The translations under genes were made by a program, and so were the position numbers. DNA of 64,000 nt from Spongiibacteraceae bacterium. Lineage in GTDB: Bacteria; Pseudomonadota; Gammaproteobacteria; Pseudomonadales; Dasaniaceae. Below are positions 22,222-31,565 of this stretch, one piece after another. The notes beneath the pieces are model-generated. The model was not told where the DNA came from. It made no database searches and was given only the letters and a program-made list of their open reading frames with translations. The stretch is taken from positions 1 through 64,000 of the forward strand of contig JAUXHA010000002.1 in assembly GCA_030621845.1 (NCBI GenBank), in the 5' to 3' direction. How positions within the stretch are numbered: the stretch's first letter is position 1; the number at the start of each line of letters is the position of its first letter.

Positions 22222-25170
22222 ATGCCCATAAAAAAGCAAAAATATCACTTCCCTCTCCATATCCATATTGGCGCGCTGTTTATTATCCTGATTATTGCCG
22301 TGGGCTCAGCATTGGCCTGGACCAGCTATAAGCAAATTACCCGCCTGACCTTCGAGGCCACCGAAACACTCTTTACCCATACCGCCAAGGAATTACAACT
22401 CCAGTTCCAGAAAGAATACCGGCCTATTGCTACATCAGTACGCCTGCTGGCCAGTGCCGCAATAACGGAAACCAGCTCGCTGCAGGAACGCATCAAGTAC
22501 ATGCCGATCCTGGCCGAGGTTATCCGAGAGGAACCACAGGTAACCGGTTTTCAGTTAGGTTATGACAACGGCGATTATTTTATTTTGCGCTCCCTGAACA
22601 CCGATTATAAGCGTAAAATTTTTGCCGCACCTGATTACGCCAGCTACATGATTGATCATATCAGCCATAATGAGAGCGGAGACAATGTGCAGCTTCGCTT
22701 ATTCCTCAATGAGCAATTAAAAATTAAGGGCGAGATTGAACAGAGCACCAGCCCATACGACCCAAGAAATAGACCCTGGTATACCAATGCAGAAGGTGTA
22801 ACGGGCAACCATATTACCTCTCCTTACTTATTCTTTTTTGAAAAAAAAATCGGCATCACCTTGTCAAGAAAGGCACTGGAAGGAAACAGTATTGTCGCGG
22901 CCGACATCACTCTGGGCAGCCTGACCAAAACACTGGACATCAACCGTATCAGTCCATCGTCAATCAGCCTTATCTACAATCAAAAAGAAGAAATACTGGC
23001 TCACAGCTTGGGCAACAATAGCAGCTTATTGCAGAACAACAGTGACCAGCAGATTCCGACGCTCAGTGCCTTGAGCGATACGATGATAGACAATGTGCAT
23101 TTCCTCGAGCAGCAGCAGTCACAGGTTATTTCCTTTATGCGCGCTGACCAGCGCTGGTTTGGCACTGTCCGTGACATAAGTCTGCACCAGCAATTACAGG
23201 TTAAGCTGCTGGTCGCCGCGCCGGAAAAAGAATTACTCGCCGCCGCGTTTGAAATGCGTAAAACCAGCCTGCTGGTTACCATCGCTGTGGTTTTACTCTC
23301 ACTGCCCATCGCCTGGATTTCTGCCAATAAAATTTCCCGGCCCATGCGGTTGCTGGCCAGGGAAGCCAAGGCAATATCCGGTTTCAATTTTGAGGAAGAC
23401 TTCAATACCACCTCCTCAGTCCAGGAAGTCGATCAACTGGGCAGTTCGATGGACTTGATGCGAGTAACGATCAGTAACTTCCTCAACCTGATCACCTCGC
23501 TGTCCGGCGAATCGAATATCGAGCGCCTACTGGAACGCGTCACCGATGAAACCATGAAGGCCAGTGGTGCCGATGCCGCCGTCATTTATCTTTTATCCGA
23601 TGACGAAACACAGCTGGAGGCCCAGGCGCCCAGACTGGCCAACGGCCAGGTACTTGAAGAGCATGACTTGCCGGCTCAATCGGTGCTTGAAAACGAGAAT
23701 AACAACCCGCTACTGGAAAAATACCTGCTGAAGGAAGTGGGGATTGAAACCATTGAAAAATCCCAGCCCAATACGACATATCTTTTACCGATCTTCAAAG
23801 CCCTTAAAGCAGAGCAAATTACCGTTATTCTACTGCCCTTGAGCAACCGGGATAACGACTCCACCGGTGCCCTTTGCCTGATTTACGCCGAGCACAATAA
23901 AGGGCTGGAAGATGCACTCAAACCCGAACGTATCGGTTTTGCCCAGGCCCTGTCCGGCTTTGCCGCCGTATCCATGGAAAGCCGCCAGTTAATAAAAATG
24001 CAAAAGACCCTATTGCAATCGTTTATCGAATTAATTGCCAGCGCCATTGATGCCAAATCACCCTATACCGGCGGCCACTGCCAGCGGGTACCCGAGATTA
24101 CCAAAATGTTAGCCCGGGCCGCCTGTGACAGCCACGACCCTCGCTTTGAAGACTTTTCACTGAACGATGACCAGTGGGAAGAACTCCATATTGCCGCCTG
24201 GTTGCACGATTGCGGAAAAATGACCACACCGGAGTACGTGGTCGACAAGTCGACAAAGCTGGAAACCATTTATGATCGCATCCATGAAATACGCATGCGT
24301 TTCGAAGTCTTAAAGCGTGATGCCGAATTGGACTACTGGCAACAACTGAGCAATGGTGGCGATCAGCAGGCATTAGCATCCGAGCTGAACGATACTTTGA
24401 ATAAACTGGACGATGACTTTGCCTTTGTTGCCGAGTGCAATGAAGGCGGTGAATTCATGGCACCGGAAAAAATCGACCGAATCAATCAAATCGCCGAGCG
24501 CACCTGGCGCCGAACCCTCAGCGACCGACTCGGTATTTCCTGGGAAGAAAATCAACGCAAACAACGCACACCGGCGCCATCACTACCGACCCAGGAACCG
24601 CTGCTTGCCGACAAGGAAGATCAAATATTCTATCGCCAAGCCGGTGACGTCATCCCCGATGACAACCCCTGGGGTTTCAAAATTGATACGCCCGCCTATA
24701 CCTATAATCGTGGCGAGCTCTACAATCTGTCGATTAGCCGTGGAACGCTGGCGGAAGAGGAACGATTCAAGATAAATGACCATATGGTACAAACCATTAT
24801 CATGCTCAACCAGCTGCCCTATCCAAAACATTTACGCAATGTACCGGCTATCGCCGGGGGCCATCATGAAACCATGATCGGCACCGGTTATCCGAAAAGA
24901 CTGCGCAAGGAAGACATGCCCCTCACTGCAAGAATGATGGCCATTGCCGATATTTTCGAAGCACTCACCGCTGCCGACCGGCCCTATAAAAAAGCCAAAC
25001 CACTCAGTGAGTCGATAAGAATTATGGCCAAAATGCGCGACAATCAACATATCGATGCCGATTTATTTGATCTATTCCTGCAATCGGGCGTTTACCTGGA
25101 TTACGCCAAACAGTTCCTGGCCGCAGAACAGATTGATGCCGTAGATATCAGCCAGCACTTAAGCGCTTGA
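22222..25170 (+). CDS. Membrane-bound HD-GYP phosphodiesterase-like sensor with cache, HAMP and GAF-like regions
   Basis: The 982-residue protein is a probable cyclic-di-GMP phosphodiesterase or related signalling hydrolase. A first membrane helix (about 15-35) leads to a large periplasmic cache-type sensor region (about 40-345), which contains YDPRNRPWY. A second helix (about 350-370) and a HAMP linker (ISRPMRLLAREAKAI) follow, then a GAF-like region (about 447-590), then the HD-GYP domain from about 600. The HD part has GGHCQRV and AAWLHDCGKM; the GYP part has GGHHETMIGTGYP, with metal-binding residues kept. About 150 residues are inserted between HD and GYP parts, more than usual. The ATG at 22222 has GAGG 12 nt upstream; a TTG 18 nt earlier is less likely. 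Confidence 0.9.
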   Translation: MPIKKQKYHFPLHIHIGALFIILIIAVGSALAWTSYKQITRLTFEATETLFTHTAKELQLQFQKEYRPIATSVRLLASAAITETSSLQERIKYMPILAEVIREEPQVTGFQLGYDNGDYFILRSLNTDYKRKIFAAPDYASYMIDHISHNESGDNVQLRLFLNEQLKIKGEIEQSTSPYDPRNRPWYTNAEGVTGNHITSPYLFFFEKKIGITLSRKALEGNSIVAADITLGSLTKTLDINRISPSSISLIYNQKEEILAHSLGNNSSLLQNNSDQQIPTLSALSDTMIDNVHFLEQQQSQVISFMRADQRWFGTVRDISLHQQLQVKLLVAAPEKELLAAAFEMRKTSLLVTIAVVLLSLPIAWISANKISRPMRLLAREAKAISGFNFEEDFNTTSSVQEVDQLGSSMDLMRVTISNFLNLITSLSGESNIERLLERVTDETMKASGADAAVIYLLSDDETQLEAQAPRLANGQVLEEHDLPAQSVLENENNNPLLEKYLLKEVGIETIEKSQPNTTYLLPIFKALKAEQITVILLPLSNRDNDSTGALCLIYAEHNKGLEDALKPERIGFAQALSGFAAVSMESRQLIKMQKTLLQSFIELIASAIDAKSPYTGGHCQRVPEITKMLARAACDSHDPRFEDFSLNDDQWEELHIAAWLHDCGKMTTPEYVVDKSTKLETIYDRIHEIRMRFEVLKRDAELDYWQQLSNGGDQQALASELNDTLNKLDDDFAFVAECNEGGEFMAPEKIDRINQIAERTWRRTLSDRLGISWEENQRKQRTPAPSLPTQEPLLADKEDQIFYRQAGDVIPDDNPWGFKIDTPAYTYNRGELYNLSISRGTLAEEERFKINDHMVQTIIMLNQLPYPKHLRNVPAIAGGHHETMIGTGYPKRLRKEDMPLTARMMAIADIFEALTAADRPYKKAKPLSESIRIMAKMRDNQHIDADLFDLFLQSGVYLDYAKQFLAAEQIDAVDISQHLSA

Positions 25171-25221: not shown

Positions 25222-26790
25222 TTAACCCGCCATACCCCGCTTCAGCTCATCCTTATCAACCTGATTATTATCACTCTGCACCAGTGGCAGCGTTTTTTTA
25301 TACACCACTTTTCCAGGTATCATATAAGAAGCAAGGTGCTTTTTAAGCTCAAACAGTATTTCTTTCTCGCTGATTTCACTGGGCGCTGTATAGACCAGTA
25401 CAATTTCTTCTTCGATCAACTCGTTGTCAATAGCGAAGACCGCACACTGCTCGATCTGGGGAATATTTTTCGCCACCACTGACTCGATTTCAAAAGGGGA
25501 AACTCTAAAACCCCGCGTTTTAATCATGTCATCTTGTCGCGAGACAAAGTAAAGGTAACCTTCTTCGTCTTTATAGACATAATCACCTGAGGCAACAACA
25601 ATTTCATCGGTGAGCTGTCCCTCCAGATTGAGCACATCTTTTAAAATCTGCACAGATTTAAAGCGCTGCGCGTTTTCCTCTGGCGCATTCCAGAAACCGC
25701 GGTAAATATAGCCGCCTCGATGAATCAATTCGCCCACCTCACGCGCAGCACATTCCCTACCCTCTTCGTTGATGACATAAAGCTCAACATCATCAATGGG
25801 CTTTCCGATAGAATCCGGCCTGATTTTCACCTGTGAAGGCTCCAGATAAGTTGAGCGAAAAGCTTCCGTTAGACCGTGCATAGAGTAAAAATCAGCCCGC
25901 TGGAAAGTTTTCTTACAATCTCCGATCATTTTTTCTGTAACATTCCCACCCGATGAAGTAATGGTTTTAACGCCGTCAAAAAGCTCCGCACTGGGAATTC
26001 TTTGTTCATCATCATTAAACATCTGGGAAATATTGACGGGCATCAGCGGCAACACAGTGACCTTGTCATTGATCAGGTGGTCAAAAAAACTTTCGGGGAG
26101 AATGAACCGATGTAGCGCCAGCGTTGCCTGCTTAAACAGCGTGCAAAATATTTGATTCAAACCATAATCGAGATTAAAAAATAACAGGCCTGAAATGACA
26201 TCCTCATACTCCAACTTCAAATACTGAGAAACTACACGCGCCGAGTCAATCAGGTTACGATGCGAAATAACAATACCCTTGGGCGTACCTGACAGGCCAA
26301 AAGAGTAAGTAATGACAGCATTGCTATGACCACCAATGGCACAACTGTATGACTTATTATAATATTTGTAAATTTCTTCAAATGAGGCTATTTCCTTGCA
26401 GACTGTCTGGTAGGAAATTATATGGCCATCAAAATTTATTTCTTCAATACCCTCCAATTCAACTTTGTCAGAGATAATACACTGGATAGCGCAGTCGCCA
26501 ATGATGTACTCAACCTGCTCTGGCTTTAACATTTTGGTCAGTGGCACCAATAGATAATCGGTAGACAAAATGGCCAACACAGCAACAACTTGCTCGATAC
26601 CCTTGTTGGAATAGATACCAATTCGAGAACCTTTGGCGAGATCCAATTCGCTTAGATAAGAAGCGACCTGGTTGACCCGGGAAAACAATTCACCGTAGGA
26701 CATAGTCTTTTCATTAAAGATCAAGGCTGTTTTATCAGCGTGACCCTGCGCCGCATCTTCGAGAAGTGTTCTTATACAGTTTATTGACAT
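25222..26790 (-). CDS. AMP-forming acyl/amino-acid ligase-like protein of the glutamate mutase operon
   Basis: This 522-residue protein has the adenylate-forming enzyme fold. Motif A3 reads YSFGLSGTPKG, a variant of the usual TSG(S/T)TGxPKG. A5 is YSMHGLTEA, A7 is ASGDYVYKDEEGY, A8 is SRQDDMIKTRGFRVSPFEIE. The A10 region reads DNNQVDKDELK, where the catalytic lysine of the NGK triplet would be glutamine. The substrate is unknown. No carrier protein or condensation domain is attached or nearby. The ATG at 26790 has AAGGA upstream and overlaps the previous gene by 10 nt, so it is the fourth gene of a translationally coupled operon. Base composition is AT-richer than the flanks. Confidence 0.85.
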   Translation of the reverse strand: MSINCIRTLLEDAAQGHADKTALIFNEKTMSYGELFSRVNQVASYLSELDLAKGSRIGIYSNKGIEQVVAVLAILSTDYLLVPLTKMLKPEQVEYIIGDCAIQCIISDKVELEGIEEINFDGHIISYQTVCKEIASFEEIYKYYNKSYSCAIGGHSNAVITYSFGLSGTPKGIVISHRNLIDSARVVSQYLKLEYEDVISGLLFFNLDYGLNQIFCTLFKQATLALHRFILPESFFDHLINDKVTVLPLMPVNISQMFNDDEQRIPSAELFDGVKTITSSGGNVTEKMIGDCKKTFQRADFYSMHGLTEAFRSTYLEPSQVKIRPDSIGKPIDDVELYVINEEGRECAAREVGELIHRGGYIYRGFWNAPEENAQRFKSVQILKDVLNLEGQLTDEIVVASGDYVYKDEEGYLYFVSRQDDMIKTRGFRVSPFEIESVVAKNIPQIEQCAVFAIDNELIEEEIVLVYTAPSEISEKEILFELKKHLASYMIPGKVVYKKTLPLVQSDNNQVDKDELKRGMAG

Positions 26791-27983
26791 AATTCTTTTT
26801 CCTTTGCTCCAAGCGTCCAAATGTCATAGTTGCTATCAAGAATGGTCGCAGGGCTGTGATCCGAGGTAAGGATTTTTTTATAGAAAAACGAGATGATATT
26901 TTCAATTTCATCAATATTAAGTACTTTGGTAATTCCACCAGTTAGCACAATGGAGTTAATCGCCAGTAGCTTCAAGTTGATATAGGCTTTTTTATAATGC
27001 GACATTTTACAAAGCACCAGAAAGATGGCGAGCTGCATTAATATTTTTGTCGCTTTTTCACTTTCTTCGTCGAATATATTTTCGGTTACCTTTAAATGCA
27101 TCAACAATTCATAGACAAACTCATTTTCTTTAGCAGCAAAAATCAGTGACTGCCTGGATTTGTAGACACCCAGCTTTTTAAAAACTAGCCTGTCATATTC
27201 ATTTTCGGTCACTATATTGTCGTCAACCAAATCTTTTGAGTAGTGAATATCCGTAGTGGCTCCGCCAATATCCAACAGGATAAACGGATTTACCACAGAG
27301 AACCTGGCATCAATAAAGGGCAGCGCCTTATTGACAATATAGGGCGTTGAAAATATTTGATTGGCGGTAATATCATACAGGTGCTTGATATCTTCCTTGC
27401 CTTCTATATCTTGCTGGTAAAGGTTGGTTAGAAACTCTTTTAGATATTTTTCTACGATATGCAGCCTGTCATCAATGATATTGGGCAAGATAACAACATT
27501 TTCAATATTATCTTTTATCGCGGGAACCTCTTTCTCGCTACCCACAAAAACAATATTTGAGTAATTCAAGCTCGCCAAATACTGATACAGACTGGCAGAA
27601 AAAATATTATCATGGCTATTGATTCCACCCACCACAATAACAACATCAATAAGATCGCTGGGCGGCGTGTATTCTTCTATATTTTGATAGAGAACGGTAT
27701 CGATAATATTAATGCCTGAGTTAAAGGCAATATTGGCGGCATATTTTAATGAAAATGACTGACTAATACCGATAATCAACGCACTTAAACCACCGTTGGC
27801 GGATGAACAGATGTGCACGTCATTTTTGTCGAAGCGCTTAATAATATTACCGCACTTATGTGTTAAATCATCCAGAATGTCTTTATTGAAATTCCTAAAA
27901 TGCTGCTCAAGGTGTTCAGATGTGCTGAGTTTGAAATAGGTGCTGCCTATGTCAATGAAGAGCTTTTCATTTTCCCGGCTCAT
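26781..27983 (-). CDS. glmL: Glutamate mutase accessory protein, GlmL/MutL family
   Basis: This is a 400-residue ASKHA-fold ATPase-like protein of the MutL family that accompanies B12-dependent glutamate mutase. It probably serves as a reactivase or assembly factor. The phosphate-binding motif LFIDIGSTYFKLS lies at the N terminus, and a second one, FILLDIGGATTDIHYS, near residue 232; the latter is diagnostic of GlmL. A third glycine-rich element is VLTGGITKVLN. The protein is shorter than the longest family members. It overlaps glmE by 4 nt (ATGA) and the ligase gene by 10 nt. Confidence 0.85.
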   Translation of the reverse strand: MSRENEKLFIDIGSTYFKLSTSEHLEQHFRNFNKDILDDLTHKCGNIIKRFDKNDVHICSSANGGLSALIIGISQSFSLKYAANIAFNSGINIIDTVLYQNIEEYTPPSDLIDVVIVVGGINSHDNIFSASLYQYLASLNYSNIVFVGSEKEVPAIKDNIENVVILPNIIDDRLHIVEKYLKEFLTNLYQQDIEGKEDIKHLYDITANQIFSTPYIVNKALPFIDARFSVVNPFILLDIGGATTDIHYSKDLVDDNIVTENEYDRLVFKKLGVYKSRQSLIFAAKENEFVYELLMHLKVTENIFDEESEKATKILMQLAIFLVLCKMSHYKKAYINLKLLAINSIVLTGGITKVLNIDEIENIISFFYKKILTSDHSPATILDSNYDIWTLGAKEKELCQ

Positions 27984-29353
27984 TGCATTATCCCTATATC
28001 ATGGATAATGTCATCGACAATACCCGTGGTACTTTTGTTTAAATCACATTGTGCTTTTTCGTATTCAAAGCAGCGATCGGGTATAGGAACGCCACCTCTT
28101 TTTATAATCCGGATATTTTTATTGGCATCCCTGATGGTGATCATTTCATTATGGTTAATTATATGCGGGGAGAAAGGTACATCGATAATGCCGTTTTTAA
28201 TCGAATTAAAGACTTTCCGCCATAAGGTGTCTGCCGGGTCATTAAACACCGCCTCCATAATGGCATTAACCTCCTCGGTCAATACCTCTTCTTCCTGTTC
28301 ATCGACTACATTGGGCAAGCCGTTTAAGATACCCAGGGTATACTGCGTGTCGGCCACTGTTTTTGCATTGGCTTCCTTGGTTGGGATGCCAGTAGCCTCT
28401 TCACGTGTTTTAGTAATAATTTTATCTGCGCCCACCATGGAGGCAATTACTGTTGACAGATTAATCAACTGCTCGGCAAAATCCTTATTAGCTGGAAAGG
28501 CACCCATCCACTGATGATAGACAAGGTGTATCGCGGCATCACCGCAGTCAATTTGCTGCGCATAATATTTGGCCAACTTCTTGATCACAGCCCCTGTCAC
28601 AATATCCTGATTCATTGAACCTTGCTGGGAAAAGGAAACAGAAAATGATTTCACGCCCTCTTCCAGTGACAATAACATCTCCAACAACTGAATGACTATG
28701 GTAATGGACGGCGGCACCAGGGTGGCTGTTAACGGGCCAAAGGATTCTCTATTGATGGGCTCATTGAGTTTTGAATAATTGGCGCATACGCGCTCTACAT
28801 ACTTCCAGTACAAGAAGGCCTTGTCTAAAGGGAAGTTTTTAGAATAGGGCAACAGGTAGGTAATCGGCCCACCTTCTATTTCAAAAATTCCCGACGCAAT
28901 AGCCGTTTCGATTAGCAATCGGGCGTCGGGTGTGCCATGCCGTAAACTCACAGGCTTATCAAAGTGCGTGATCATCTTACGCGTGGTCCGATATCCATGC
29001 GTCACCAATGGGTAACCATTGAGCATATCCATATCATTTTCTTCGCTCAGGCGAAGCATTTTCTTTGCTGTGGCGTAGTCGTTTAGCCGAGTATTTGAAT
29101 CAATTGTTAACGGCAATACATCGACATTAGCCTCAACAAAAAATTCATACAAGGCAAATTGTTGCTTGTAGGTAGGGAAACCACCTCTGGGCTGAACCAG
29201 CATTTTATTTTTTTTCTTAAAATGGTGAGAGATAAACAATTCTTTACTGGCATTTTTCACGAAAGCCTCAACTTCAGAAAAATCAAAAGTATCAACATAC
29301 TCATTGCCAAGAATGATTTCTCTTTCTTCCTGTAGCAAACTCATTATTGACAT
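27980..29353 (-). CDS. glmE: Glutamate mutase (methylaspartate mutase) epsilon-type catalytic subunit
   Basis: This is the barrel subunit that rearranges L-glutamate and (2S,3S)-3-methylaspartate by adenosylcobalamin radical chemistry. The 457-residue product keeps the substrate-binding set known from the clostridial enzyme: arginines in TIDSNTRLNDY and SLRHGTPDARLL, the Glu and Tyr residues in EGGPITYLLPYSK, and the Lys and Glu of GIPTKEANA. The asparagine usually found in the ITYN position is Leu. FGPLTATLVPPSI and YHQWMGAFP are also family-typical. It overlaps glmS by 10 nt; an ATG at 29344 is an alternative start. Confidence 0.92.
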   Translation of the reverse strand: MSIMSLLQEEREIILGNEYVDTFDFSEVEAFVKNASKELFISHHFKKKNKMLVQPRGGFPTYKQQFALYEFFVEANVDVLPLTIDSNTRLNDYATAKKMLRLSEENDMDMLNGYPLVTHGYRTTRKMITHFDKPVSLRHGTPDARLLIETAIASGIFEIEGGPITYLLPYSKNFPLDKAFLYWKYVERVCANYSKLNEPINRESFGPLTATLVPPSITIVIQLLEMLLSLEEGVKSFSVSFSQQGSMNQDIVTGAVIKKLAKYYAQQIDCGDAAIHLVYHQWMGAFPANKDFAEQLINLSTVIASMVGADKIITKTREEATGIPTKEANAKTVADTQYTLGILNGLPNVVDEQEEEVLTEEVNAIMEAVFNDPADTLWRKVFNSIKNGIIDVPFSPHIINHNEMITIRDANKNIRIIKRGGVPIPDRCFEYEKAQCDLNKSTTGIVDDIIHDIGIMQ

Positions 29354-29769
29354 CTCTCTTTGATCTTTCCATCGTTGATAAAGGCTTCCAGTGAGTCAAG
29401 CCCGGTGTTTAGGTCCACCTGGTGACAAACCAGATCGAAGCCATAATTTTTGTAACGGGAGACAATGTCCTCGGTATTGCCGCTGCCGACCACTAAATTG
29501 CCACCAATCATCATAATAAGCTCATCTAATTGCTTATATTTTGCCTTCAGCAGCTTAACCTCGCGAGCCCAGCCCTCGGCCTCACCGTTGAGGGACGATA
29601 TCATCAGCACCTCCGCCCCCGTTTCCACTGCTGCATCAAAAAACTCTTCCAGGTAAGTGTTAACGCCTAAATTAAACACTTCATACCCTCTAGCTTGCAG
29701 AGAAAGGTCAATAAGTCGATTGGCAACTACATGAATATCGTTGCCAACAACGCCTGTTATTACTTTCAT
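29344..29769 (-). CDS. glmS: Glutamate mutase sigma-type cobalamin-binding subunit
   Basis: This 141-residue Rossmann-like domain should bind the cobalamin of glutamate mutase. It aligns with GlmS along its length: KVITGVVGNDIHVVANRLID, VLMISSLNGEAEGW, MIGGNLVVGSGNTEDI and KNYGFDLVCHQ. The axial-ligand motif is DIHVVA, so the Asp and His of DxHxxG are kept but the final Gly is Ala. It is the first gene of the four-gene operon glmS-glmE-glmL-ligase, all overlapping. The 108-nt divergent region upstream is shared with the RraA-like gene. I saw no cobalamin riboswitch there. Confidence 0.9.
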   Translation of the reverse strand: MKVITGVVGNDIHVVANRLIDLSLQARGYEVFNLGVNTYLEEFFDAAVETGAEVLMISSLNGEAEGWAREVKLLKAKYKQLDELIMMIGGNLVVGSGNTEDIVSRYKNYGFDLVCHQVDLNTGLDSLEAFINDGKIKERCQ

Positions 29770-29877: not shown

Positions 29878-30357
29878 ATGACATTTTTTACCGCAGATAT
29901 CTGTGATATGCACAGCGATAAGGTATTTGTACTGGGAGCAGGCTACAAAAGCTATGGCGGTGCAGACAAGTGCCAGGGGGAAATCGTCACAGTAAAACTG
30001 GATAAAAACAATACCGAGCTAATAAGTTTGCTAAGAGACGAAGATGGCTCGGGAAAAATTGTCGTAGTCGATGTAGATCAAGCCTATTATGCTGTGGTGG
30101 GAGAAAACCTGATGAAATTCGCCCAACAGAATAACTACGCAGGCATCATCGTCAATGGCTATATCCGGGATACCTTCCAGATTAGGGATATTCCTGTCGC
30201 TTTATACGCACTGGGCACCTGCTCACGAAAGTATATCCCAGTAACACAGGGCGAAAGAAACACCCCCTTATCTTTTGGTGGCCTCGATTTTAACAGCGGT
30301 GACTATCTGTATGCCGATACCGATGGCGTAATCGTCAGCGCTGATAAAATTGTTTAG
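29878..30357 (+). CDS. RraA-family protein, possible class II aldolase or oxaloacetate decarboxylase-like enzyme
   Basis: This 159-residue protein has the RraA fold. It aligns end to end with E. coli RraA: TADICDMHSDKV, GYKSYGGADKCQGEIVTVK, GKIVVVDVDQAYYAVVGEN, GIIVNGYIRDTFQIRDIPVAL and the C-terminal SGDYLYADTDGVIVS. The family holds RNase E inhibitors and metal-dependent aldolases or decarboxylases acting on oxaloacetate-like acids. The enzymes carry a Gly...Arg-Asp pattern, and an Arg-Asp pair is present here (GYIRD). It is divergent from glmS, which hints at a role with the mutase. The start has AGGAAG 5 nt upstream. Confidence 0.8.
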   Translation: MTFFTADICDMHSDKVFVLGAGYKSYGGADKCQGEIVTVKLDKNNTELISLLRDEDGSGKIVVVDVDQAYYAVVGENLMKFAQQNNYAGIIVNGYIRDTFQIRDIPVALYALGTCSRKYIPVTQGERNTPLSFGGLDFNSGDYLYADTDGVIVSADKIV

Positions 30358-30377: not shown

Positions 30378-31565
30378 TTAAAGCACTTTAGCGATCGATT
30401 GCGTCAGGTAATCCACATTAGCAGGCGAAATCGCAGCAACGCTGATACGACTGGAGCCTACAATATAAATACTAAACTCGTCCTGCAAGCGCTGCACCTG
30501 ATGTTGGTCAATGCCTAAAAACGAGAACATGCCTTTTTGAGTGGTAATAAAGCTGAAATCGCGCGTTATGCCATTGGCCAACAACTTTTCAACCAATAGT
30601 TGGCGCATACCGGCAATGCGATCGCGCATTACCTTTAATTCGCCATGCCACTGCTGGCTAAGCTCGGTAGAGTTTAAAATGGCTTCTACAATGGCCGCGC
30701 CATGGGCTGGAGGCATGGAGTAATTAACCCGCACTACCGACAGCAATACCGAGTAAATAATATCTGCGGCGCTGGCGCTGGTCGCAATCACCGAGCAAGC
30801 ACCGATACGTTCGCGGTATAAGCCGAAGTTTTTCGAGCAGGAACTGCAGACAATCATTTGTTCAACGCTGTCCGCCATCAACCTCAGGCCATAGGCATCT
30901 TCGTCCAGGCCCTCACCAAAGCCCTGATAGGCGATATCAACAAGCGGCATGAAACCAATTTGGCTGGCGATTTCAGCCACCTGCTGCCATTGCTGCGGAT
31001 TTAAATCCATACCACTGGGGTTATGGCAGCAGGCGTGCAACAACACCACATCGTCCCCGGGTATTCGTTTTAAGGCTTCAAGCATCCCGGAAAAATCCAG
31101 GCATTTATTTTCATAGTCATAATAGGGGTAGGTTTTTACCTTCAAACCAGCCGCGGTAAAAACGCCCTGATGGTTTGCCCAGGTAGGGTTGCTGACCCAG
31201 ATGGTGGCGCCTGGGGTACATTTATTAATCAATTCACCCGCAACACGCAAAGCGCCTGTGCCACCAGGAGTCGATAGGGTACGAATACGATTTTCGCCAA
31301 TCACCTTATGATCGCCAAGCAGAAGTCGGGTAATTTGCTCATTAAAAGACACCGAGCCAGCAGAACCCAAATAGGTTTTGCTGGTTTCCTTATCGAGCCG
31401 AAATTGTTCAGCGACTTTGACGCAGGCGAGAACGGGTGTATGACCCGAATCATCTTTGTAAATACCCGGCCCCAGATCAATTTTTCGGGGATTATTATCG
31501 GCCTTGAACTTCACCGACAAGCCCAAAATAGGATCTGCAGGCATTGCTTTTAACTGCGAAAACAT
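30378..31565 (-). CDS. Aspartate/aromatic amino acid aminotransferase (class I)
   Basis: This is a 395-residue PLP enzyme of the AspC/TyrB subgroup. It transfers the amino group between aspartate, aromatic or similar amino acids and 2-oxoglutarate. The lysine for PLP is in SSCSKNFGLYRERIG. Other family motifs are IDLGPGIYKDDSGHTPVL, TPGGTGALRVAGEL, LLHACCHNPSGMDL and DIAYQGFGEGLDEDA. It is convergent with the RraA-like gene (20-nt gap). It may be an ordinary housekeeping gene or may act on 3-methylaspartate from the neighbouring mutase. Confidence 0.92.
   Translation of the reverse strand: MFSQLKAMPADPILGLSVKFKADNNPRKIDLGPGIYKDDSGHTPVLACVKVAEQFRLDKETSKTYLGSAGSVSFNEQITRLLLGDHKVIGENRIRTLSTPGGTGALRVAGELINKCTPGATIWVSNPTWANHQGVFTAAGLKVKTYPYYDYENKCLDFSGMLEALKRIPGDDVVLLHACCHNPSGMDLNPQQWQQVAEIASQIGFMPLVDIAYQGFGEGLDEDAYGLRLMADSVEQMIVCSSCSKNFGLYRERIGACSVIATSASAADIIYSVLLSVVRVNYSMPPAHGAAIVEAILNSTELSQQWHGELKVMRDRIAGMRQLLVEKLLANGITRDFSFITTQKGMFSFLGIDQHQVQRLQDEFSIYIVGSSRISVAAISPANVDYLTQSIAKVL

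Follow-up and report, generated by a model that had tools for sequence, protein, structure and literature searches.

An ANL-superfamily ligase-like protein of coenzyme-B12 glutamate mutase operons with altered A3 and A10 motifs and a possible loss of its own adenylation

The ligase gene and the glutamate mutase operon

The window, a 64,000-nucleotide stretch of DNA (contig JAUXHA010000002.1, positions 1 to 64,000), was taken from an incomplete assembly (84%) of a Spongiibacteraceae bacterium. The locus comprised the following genes.

25222..26790, minus strand: ANL-superfamily (AMP-binding) ligase-like protein, 522 aa, assigned from Pfam matches and orthologous loci
26781..27983, minus strand: mutL/glmL-like ASKHA ATPase (glutamate mutase accessory protein), 400 aa, Pfam MutL 85.5 bits
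27980..29353, minus strand: mutE/glmE, glutamate mutase epsilon subunit, matching 1cb7/6h9e
29344..29769, minus strand: mutS/glmS, B12-binding sigma subunit, NF002612 144 bits (cut-off 110)
29878..30357, plus strand: divergent RraA-like protein with a catalytic-type Arg-Asp pair, beside mutS in most loci of both phyla
30378..31565, minus strand: aspartate/aromatic-type aminotransferase, NF006719 570 bits

The ligase reading frame runs on the minus strand from an ATG at 26790 to a stop codon ending at 25222 and is preceded by an AAAGGA-like ribosome-binding site. Read leftwards, it is the fourth and last gene of a mutS-mutE-mutL-ligase operon with successive overlaps of 4-10 bp; the ligase start and the mutL end share 10 bp. 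The Pfam AMP-binding and AMP-binding_C models matched the protein at 192.8 and 28.9 bits (gathering scores 29.9 and 24.5, respectively). The fold was confirmed by an AlphaFold model of moderate confidence, the top PDB matches of which were ANL folds; residues 358-419 (hinge region) had a pLDDT below 50 and the domain orientation is unreliable. The best curated family was TIGR03098 (exosortase A system-associated acyl-CoA ligase, AMP-forming) at 415.2 bits. As this falls below the cut-off of 592.35, the ligase is placed by profile score outside TIGR03098.

The glutamate mutase looks catalytic, because ten active-site residues of the Clostridium enzyme are conserved. Relative to 6h9e, residues R66, R100, R149, E171, Y177, Y181, H291, K322, K326 and E330 (Clostridium numbering) are intact in MutE, and they are kept in 83-84 of 84 orthologues. 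R66, R100 and R149 form the arginine claw of GlmE. MutE scored 365.2 bits against TIGR01503, slightly under the cut-off of 390.1. The window proteins resemble clostridial GlmS/GlmE/GlmL in being the same mutase with the ten checked residues intact, but they differ in the other two proteins. The B12-binding motif of MutS is DxHxxA, not DxHxxG (Ala in 79/79 orthologues), and MutL is short (400 aa) and divergent, far under the GlmL cut-off (68 versus 475 bits). The ASKHA-type motifs D-x-G-S-T-Y and D-I-G-G-A-T-T-D of MutL are near-invariant. No ANL protein is known from the classical clostridial glutamate mutase operons.

Orthologues were searched for with peptide patterns of the window protein, which biases the sample to close relatives, and this was partly offset by whole-genome searches. 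Sixty-five orthologous loci from genome contigs, with later additions from Campylobacterales and Gammaproteobacteria, yielded 92 non-redundant sequences, counting the window ligase itself, with 55-82% identity to the window protein. These came from marine Gammaproteobacteria and Campylobacterota; a number are metagenome-assembled, and a few taxon labels (e.g. Rhodothermales, L030) may be binning errors. Twenty-nine ligases, mostly TIGR03098, were used as an outgroup.

Where flanks were long enough, the ligase gene was nearly always found after mutL, mutE and mutS. Among 200 Campylobacterales genomes it was present in 37/37 with this mutE and in 1/163 without a mutE match, the contig in that one genome ending at the mutL edge (Fisher p 1e-39, phylogeny being ignored). 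All four gammaproteobacterial genomes with mutE (274 sampled) also contained the ligase. In genome G317 (L131, L140) the ligase and mutS-mutE lie on separate contigs, with no mutL recognised beside either. In L120 (genome G469) about 4.5 kb parts mutE from mutL-ligase, and mutL and the ligase stay together. Inspection of the conserved neighbourhood in the window and related loci turned up no adenylating partner enzyme, and the operon itself showed no such partner, no carrier protein and no NRPS. Standalone ACP and PLP decarboxylase families gave no match among the window neighbours scanned, and neither was recognised among recurrent neighbours. A search for an upstream cobalamin riboswitch in the corresponding stretch of the window and at seven related loci was negative. 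This mutase-ligase operon was not described in any paper that searches of the open-access literature returned.

The RraA-like neighbour has Arg-Asp in 65/65 sequences where E. coli RraA has Arg-Gln. This pair makes a role as an enzyme, perhaps an oxoacid aldolase or decarboxylase, more probable than one in regulating RNase E. In 22 gammaproteobacterial loci the operon has an aspartate/aromatic-type aminotransferase gene close by. To judge from their families, the two proteins would allow conversion of 3-methylaspartate to 3-methyloxaloacetate and then 2-oxobutanoate. This is the old glutamate-mutase route to isoleucine, which PMC7476758 lists. An isoleucine bypass was rejected as the reason for the operon: each of the 21 host genomes tested has threonine-deaminase-like genes, which exceed the family cut-off in 16, so the mutase route replaces nothing and would be unneeded for isoleucine. 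A catabolic use of the mutase, aminotransferase and RraA-like steps is possible. Elsewhere in the window, a sub-threshold CRISPR-DR8 match (23713-23750, minus strand; 23.2 versus 39 bits) inside an HD-GYP gene is probably due to chance.

The A10 and A3 motifs across the orthologues

Two motifs of the ligase depart from the usual ANL sequences.

25240..25290, minus strand: altered A10 loop, residues 501-517 LPLVQSDNNQVDKDELK, identified from residue 510 counts in 92 members versus the outgroup
26275..26313, minus strand: altered A3 phosphate loop, residues 160-172 ITYSFGLSGTPKG, in which F164 replaces Ser and L166 replaces Ser/Thr

The A10 lysine is described as a strongly conserved residue of aryl-, acyl- and fatty-acyl-CoA ligases (PMC8388817). 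The first-pass annotation had read glutamine at this position (DNNQVDK), and the alignment bears this out: Gln510, encoded by CAG at 25261-25263 on the minus strand, aligns with Lys in 29/29 outgroup ligases. The register was set against the orthologues, the exosortase-associated sister family TIGR03098 and other ligases. No gap falls in the downstream anchor V-D-K-x-x-L, and with this anchor and the helix after the loop, Gln510 takes the A10 lysine position. The loop contains a two-residue insertion, and when it is anchored on the preceding L-P, Asn508 takes the lysine position. By alignment, the ligase is without the A10 lysine in both registers (Gln510 or N508). Relative to the consensus Px4GKxx(R/K) it has Gln510, the two-residue insertion and no Lys at 505-510.

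The orthologue comparison proposed at first pass revealed that the A10 change is family-wide (n=92 non-redundant sequences). Residue 510 was Lys in 47 members, Gln in 22, Arg in 12, Glu in 5, Ser in 3, Leu in 1 and Val in 1, with one gap; the Gln codons, where inspected, were CAG or CAA. Lys was present somewhere in 505-510 in about 78/92 members, most of those without Lys510 carrying it at 508 or 509, and was absent throughout 505-510 in 14/92, the window ligase among them. A relocated loop lysine (508 or 509) is thus possible, on sequence, in many relatives, excepting the window ligase and the 13 others. The length and sequence of the loop vary among orthologues, and one Campylobacterales orthologue set keeps the canonical GK (HFGKINK) with A3 already changed.

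The earlier suggestion that the lysine had shifted to VDK fails as a family rule, because K513 lies three residues downstream, falls on the Arg/Lys that canonically follows GK (GKxxR) and is Ile or Val in eight orthologues. The predicted C-terminal helix of the AlphaFold model begins at 513.

A tree was built by a quick method with the A3 and A10 columns excluded; it has a long outgroup branch and is unrooted for the order of changes. On this tree residue 510 must have changed at least 20 times, with K/non-K switches accounting for at least 10 of these. Sequencing error behind Gln510 was ruled out because 22/92 sequences carry Gln and the tree needs these repeated K/non-K changes. The dN/dS of eight close pairs was 0.014-0.090. 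The ligase is under strong purifying selection, and these values rule out a pseudogene or dying gene.

The A3 text reported at first pass (FGLSGTPKG, here YSFGLSGTPKG) was present, and its change is common to the whole family. The ligase reads S-F-G-L-S-G-T-P-K where the ligase consensus is (S/T)(S/T/G)G(S/T)TGxPK (PMC8388817). Residue 164 is Phe in 90 and Tyr in 2 of the 92 orthologues, versus Ser in 29/29 outgroup sequences. The family pattern is S-(F/Y)-(G/A/S)-(mostly L/M/I/V, some S/A/T)-(mostly T/S)-G, compared with T-S-G-(S/T)-T-G in the outgroup. The P-loop hydroxyl positions S163 and S167 are mostly kept in the family, and PKG is intact in the window ligase. Lys171 is replaced by Arg in 14 and by Asn in 6 of the 92 orthologues; the Arcobacter-group sequences L039, L041, L043, L044, L045, L047 and L070 have PNG for PKG, with the A3 lysine replaced, and another Campylobacterales group has PRG. 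P-loop changes in an aryl-CoA ligase lower activity up to 2,000-fold (PMC8388817). As judged by these alignments, the altered A10 and A3 are a family trait and no oddity of the window protein.

TIGR03098 ligases resemble the window ligase in the A4 aspartate (FDYG/LDYG), A5 (GLTEAFRS) and the A7-A8 layout. They differ in overall sequence (about 33% identity to the ligase, with a long separating branch), in having canonical A3 TSG(S/T)TG and the A10 Lys in all sampled members and, as far as seen, in lying outside mutase operons. Two tandem TIGR03098-like ligases, L103 and L098, were found on one contig of genome G032; both have a canonical A3 and one has NYK for NGK at A10. By the alignment the family has also diverged beyond A3 and A10, since 21/53 strongly conserved outgroup positions (a loose criterion) are changed in the orthologue set.

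Residues retained for AMP, thiolation and substrate

The remaining ANL core motifs were compared with the GrsA adenylation domain.

25480..25593, minus strand: A7-A8, residues 400-437, with D403, R418, hinge D420, thiolation lysine K424 and R429 intact
25852..25890, minus strand: A5, residues 301-313 FYSMHGLTEAFRS, with E309, pocket R312 and His305

Each of these residues is invariant (92/92), and the ligase accordingly retains the A5 Glu, A7 Asp, A8 Arg, hinge Asp and A8 thiolation Lys of ANL enzymes. The adenine-side residue 305 is His throughout the family versus the near-universal A5 aromatic Tyr, present in 28/29 outgroup sequences. In GrsA, the A10 lysine K517 serves adenylation and the A8 lysine K434 serves thiolation, and the R439-E327 salt bridge is the switch into the thiolation state (PMC11253843). 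In the motif alignment, K424 matches K434, R429 matches R439 and E309 matches E327. Since the invariant residues map to thiolation and AMP roles and the A10 lysine maps to adenylation, constraint appears to be separated between the half-reactions, with the thiolation and AMP residues fixed, the adenylation lysine free and the P-loop altered.

D208, the amino-acid anchor, corresponds to GrsA D235, and the basic pocket residue R312 corresponds to the GrsA 330 position. Both are invariant (92/92), which, read through the specificity code, suggests an acidic amino-acid substrate.

Interpretation and relation to known systems

The reading that we favour, at a probability of roughly 0.45, is that the ligase is an ANL enzyme for an acidic amino acid (3-methylaspartate) in which adenylation is lost or badly impaired and the adenylate/thioester machinery is kept. 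As a dedicated ANL-family partner of the coenzyme-B12 glutamate mutase, it would bind an adenylate/AMP group together with an acidic amino acid, either glutamate or the mutase product 3-methylaspartate. Little or nothing would remain of the ATP-dependent adenylation half-reaction. The second half-reaction would be kept in the manner of PtmA2, with an acyl-adenylate supplied from elsewhere and its acyl group passed on as a thioester to CoA or a carrier protein. The first-pass interpretation as a whole is partly supported, and its proposal of an impaired first half-reaction is strengthened: the A10 and A3 changes are family-wide, fall on adenylation elements and leave the thiolation/AMP residues invariant. 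Against a loss of adenylation, Lys510 persists in 47/92 members and the loop could supply a lysine in many relatives, S163/S167 are mostly kept, PKG is intact in the window ligase, and no adenylating partner or carrier was seen in the operon. In broader terms, there is about an even chance that this widely distributed ANL family is a dedicated part of B12 glutamate mutase operons that has given up its own adenylation, acting either as a half-ligase on 3-methylaspartyl adenylate made elsewhere or as an adenylate-binding subunit that serves the mutase/MutL machinery.

Natural precedents exist for parts of this arrangement. The two half-reactions are divided between PtmA1 and PtmA2 in platensimycin biosynthesis (PMC6594144), and the proposed logic of the window ligase, with the second half-reaction kept and the first lost, is that of the non-adenylating acyl-CoA ligase PtmA2. 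PtmA2, however, works with its adenylating partner PtmA1, and none was found for the ligase in the conserved neighbourhood. The module 3 A domain of CysK (cystobactamid) is likewise a natural loss of the A10 catalytic lysine; it is experimentally inactive and does not accept Asn (PMC7966384). That case is a single embedded NRPS domain bypassed in trans, whereas the ligase represents a whole conserved family.

The main alternative, held at a lower probability, is a ligase that still adenylates. It would form the adenylate and thioester of 3-methylaspartate (or glutamate) in spite of its modified A3 and an A10 with Gln, Arg or a relocated loop lysine. Its model is VinN of vicenistatin biosynthesis, which with VinH/VinI forms an established pairing of glutamate mutase and 3-methylaspartate-activating enzyme (PMC11284099). 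VinN shares with the ligase the glutamate mutase partner and the expected acidic amino-acid substrate; it differs in that it adenylates, loads the ACP VinL and is followed by the decarboxylase VinO, whereas no ACP or decarboxylase was seen with the ligase operon and its A10 and A3 are altered. Lys is also the commonest residue at 510, and about 78/92 members could place one in the loop. The equilibrium of glutamate mutase is unfavourable for 3-methylaspartate, and removing the product from it by activation would make sense. The 14 members without a loop lysine, which include the window ligase, the Ser to Phe/Tyr change fixed in A3 and an operon with no visible carrier protein, PLP decarboxylase or NRPS all speak against retained adenylation.

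Less probable again is a non-catalytic ANL pseudo-enzyme acting as an extra mutase component, one that, for example, binds substrate or nucleotide and works with MutL when the B12 enzyme is assembled or reactivated. The ligase gene shares its start with the end of mutL, is not parted from mutL even in L120, co-occurs strictly with mutE and has neither an adenylating partner gene nor a carrier protein in its operon; A10 and A3 are altered and His305 replaces the adenine-side Tyr in 92/92 members. A pure scaffold would nevertheless have no need of the thiolation lysine, hinge, AMP and substrate residues that are kept in 92/92, and the classical glutamate mutase of clostridia is active without any comparable partner. 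A duplicated ligase that simply diverged or decayed, with no functional meaning, would fit the variable length and sequence of the A10 loop and is effectively excluded by the dN/dS of 0.01-0.09, 55-82% identity across two phyla, the many catalytic residues at 92/92 and the conserved operon.

The apparent novelty is that altered A10 and A3 motifs beside retained thiolation residues characterise an entire conserved family, one that is linked in two phyla with a B12 mutase operon. If the favoured reading of lost adenylation is true, a drifting A10 lysine beside a fixed thiolation lysine would be a natural experiment separating the half-reactions. The operon would then represent a new, widely distributed and mostly marine pathway from glutamate via 3-methylaspartate, and the ligase a mutase accessory protein absent from classical glutamate mutases.
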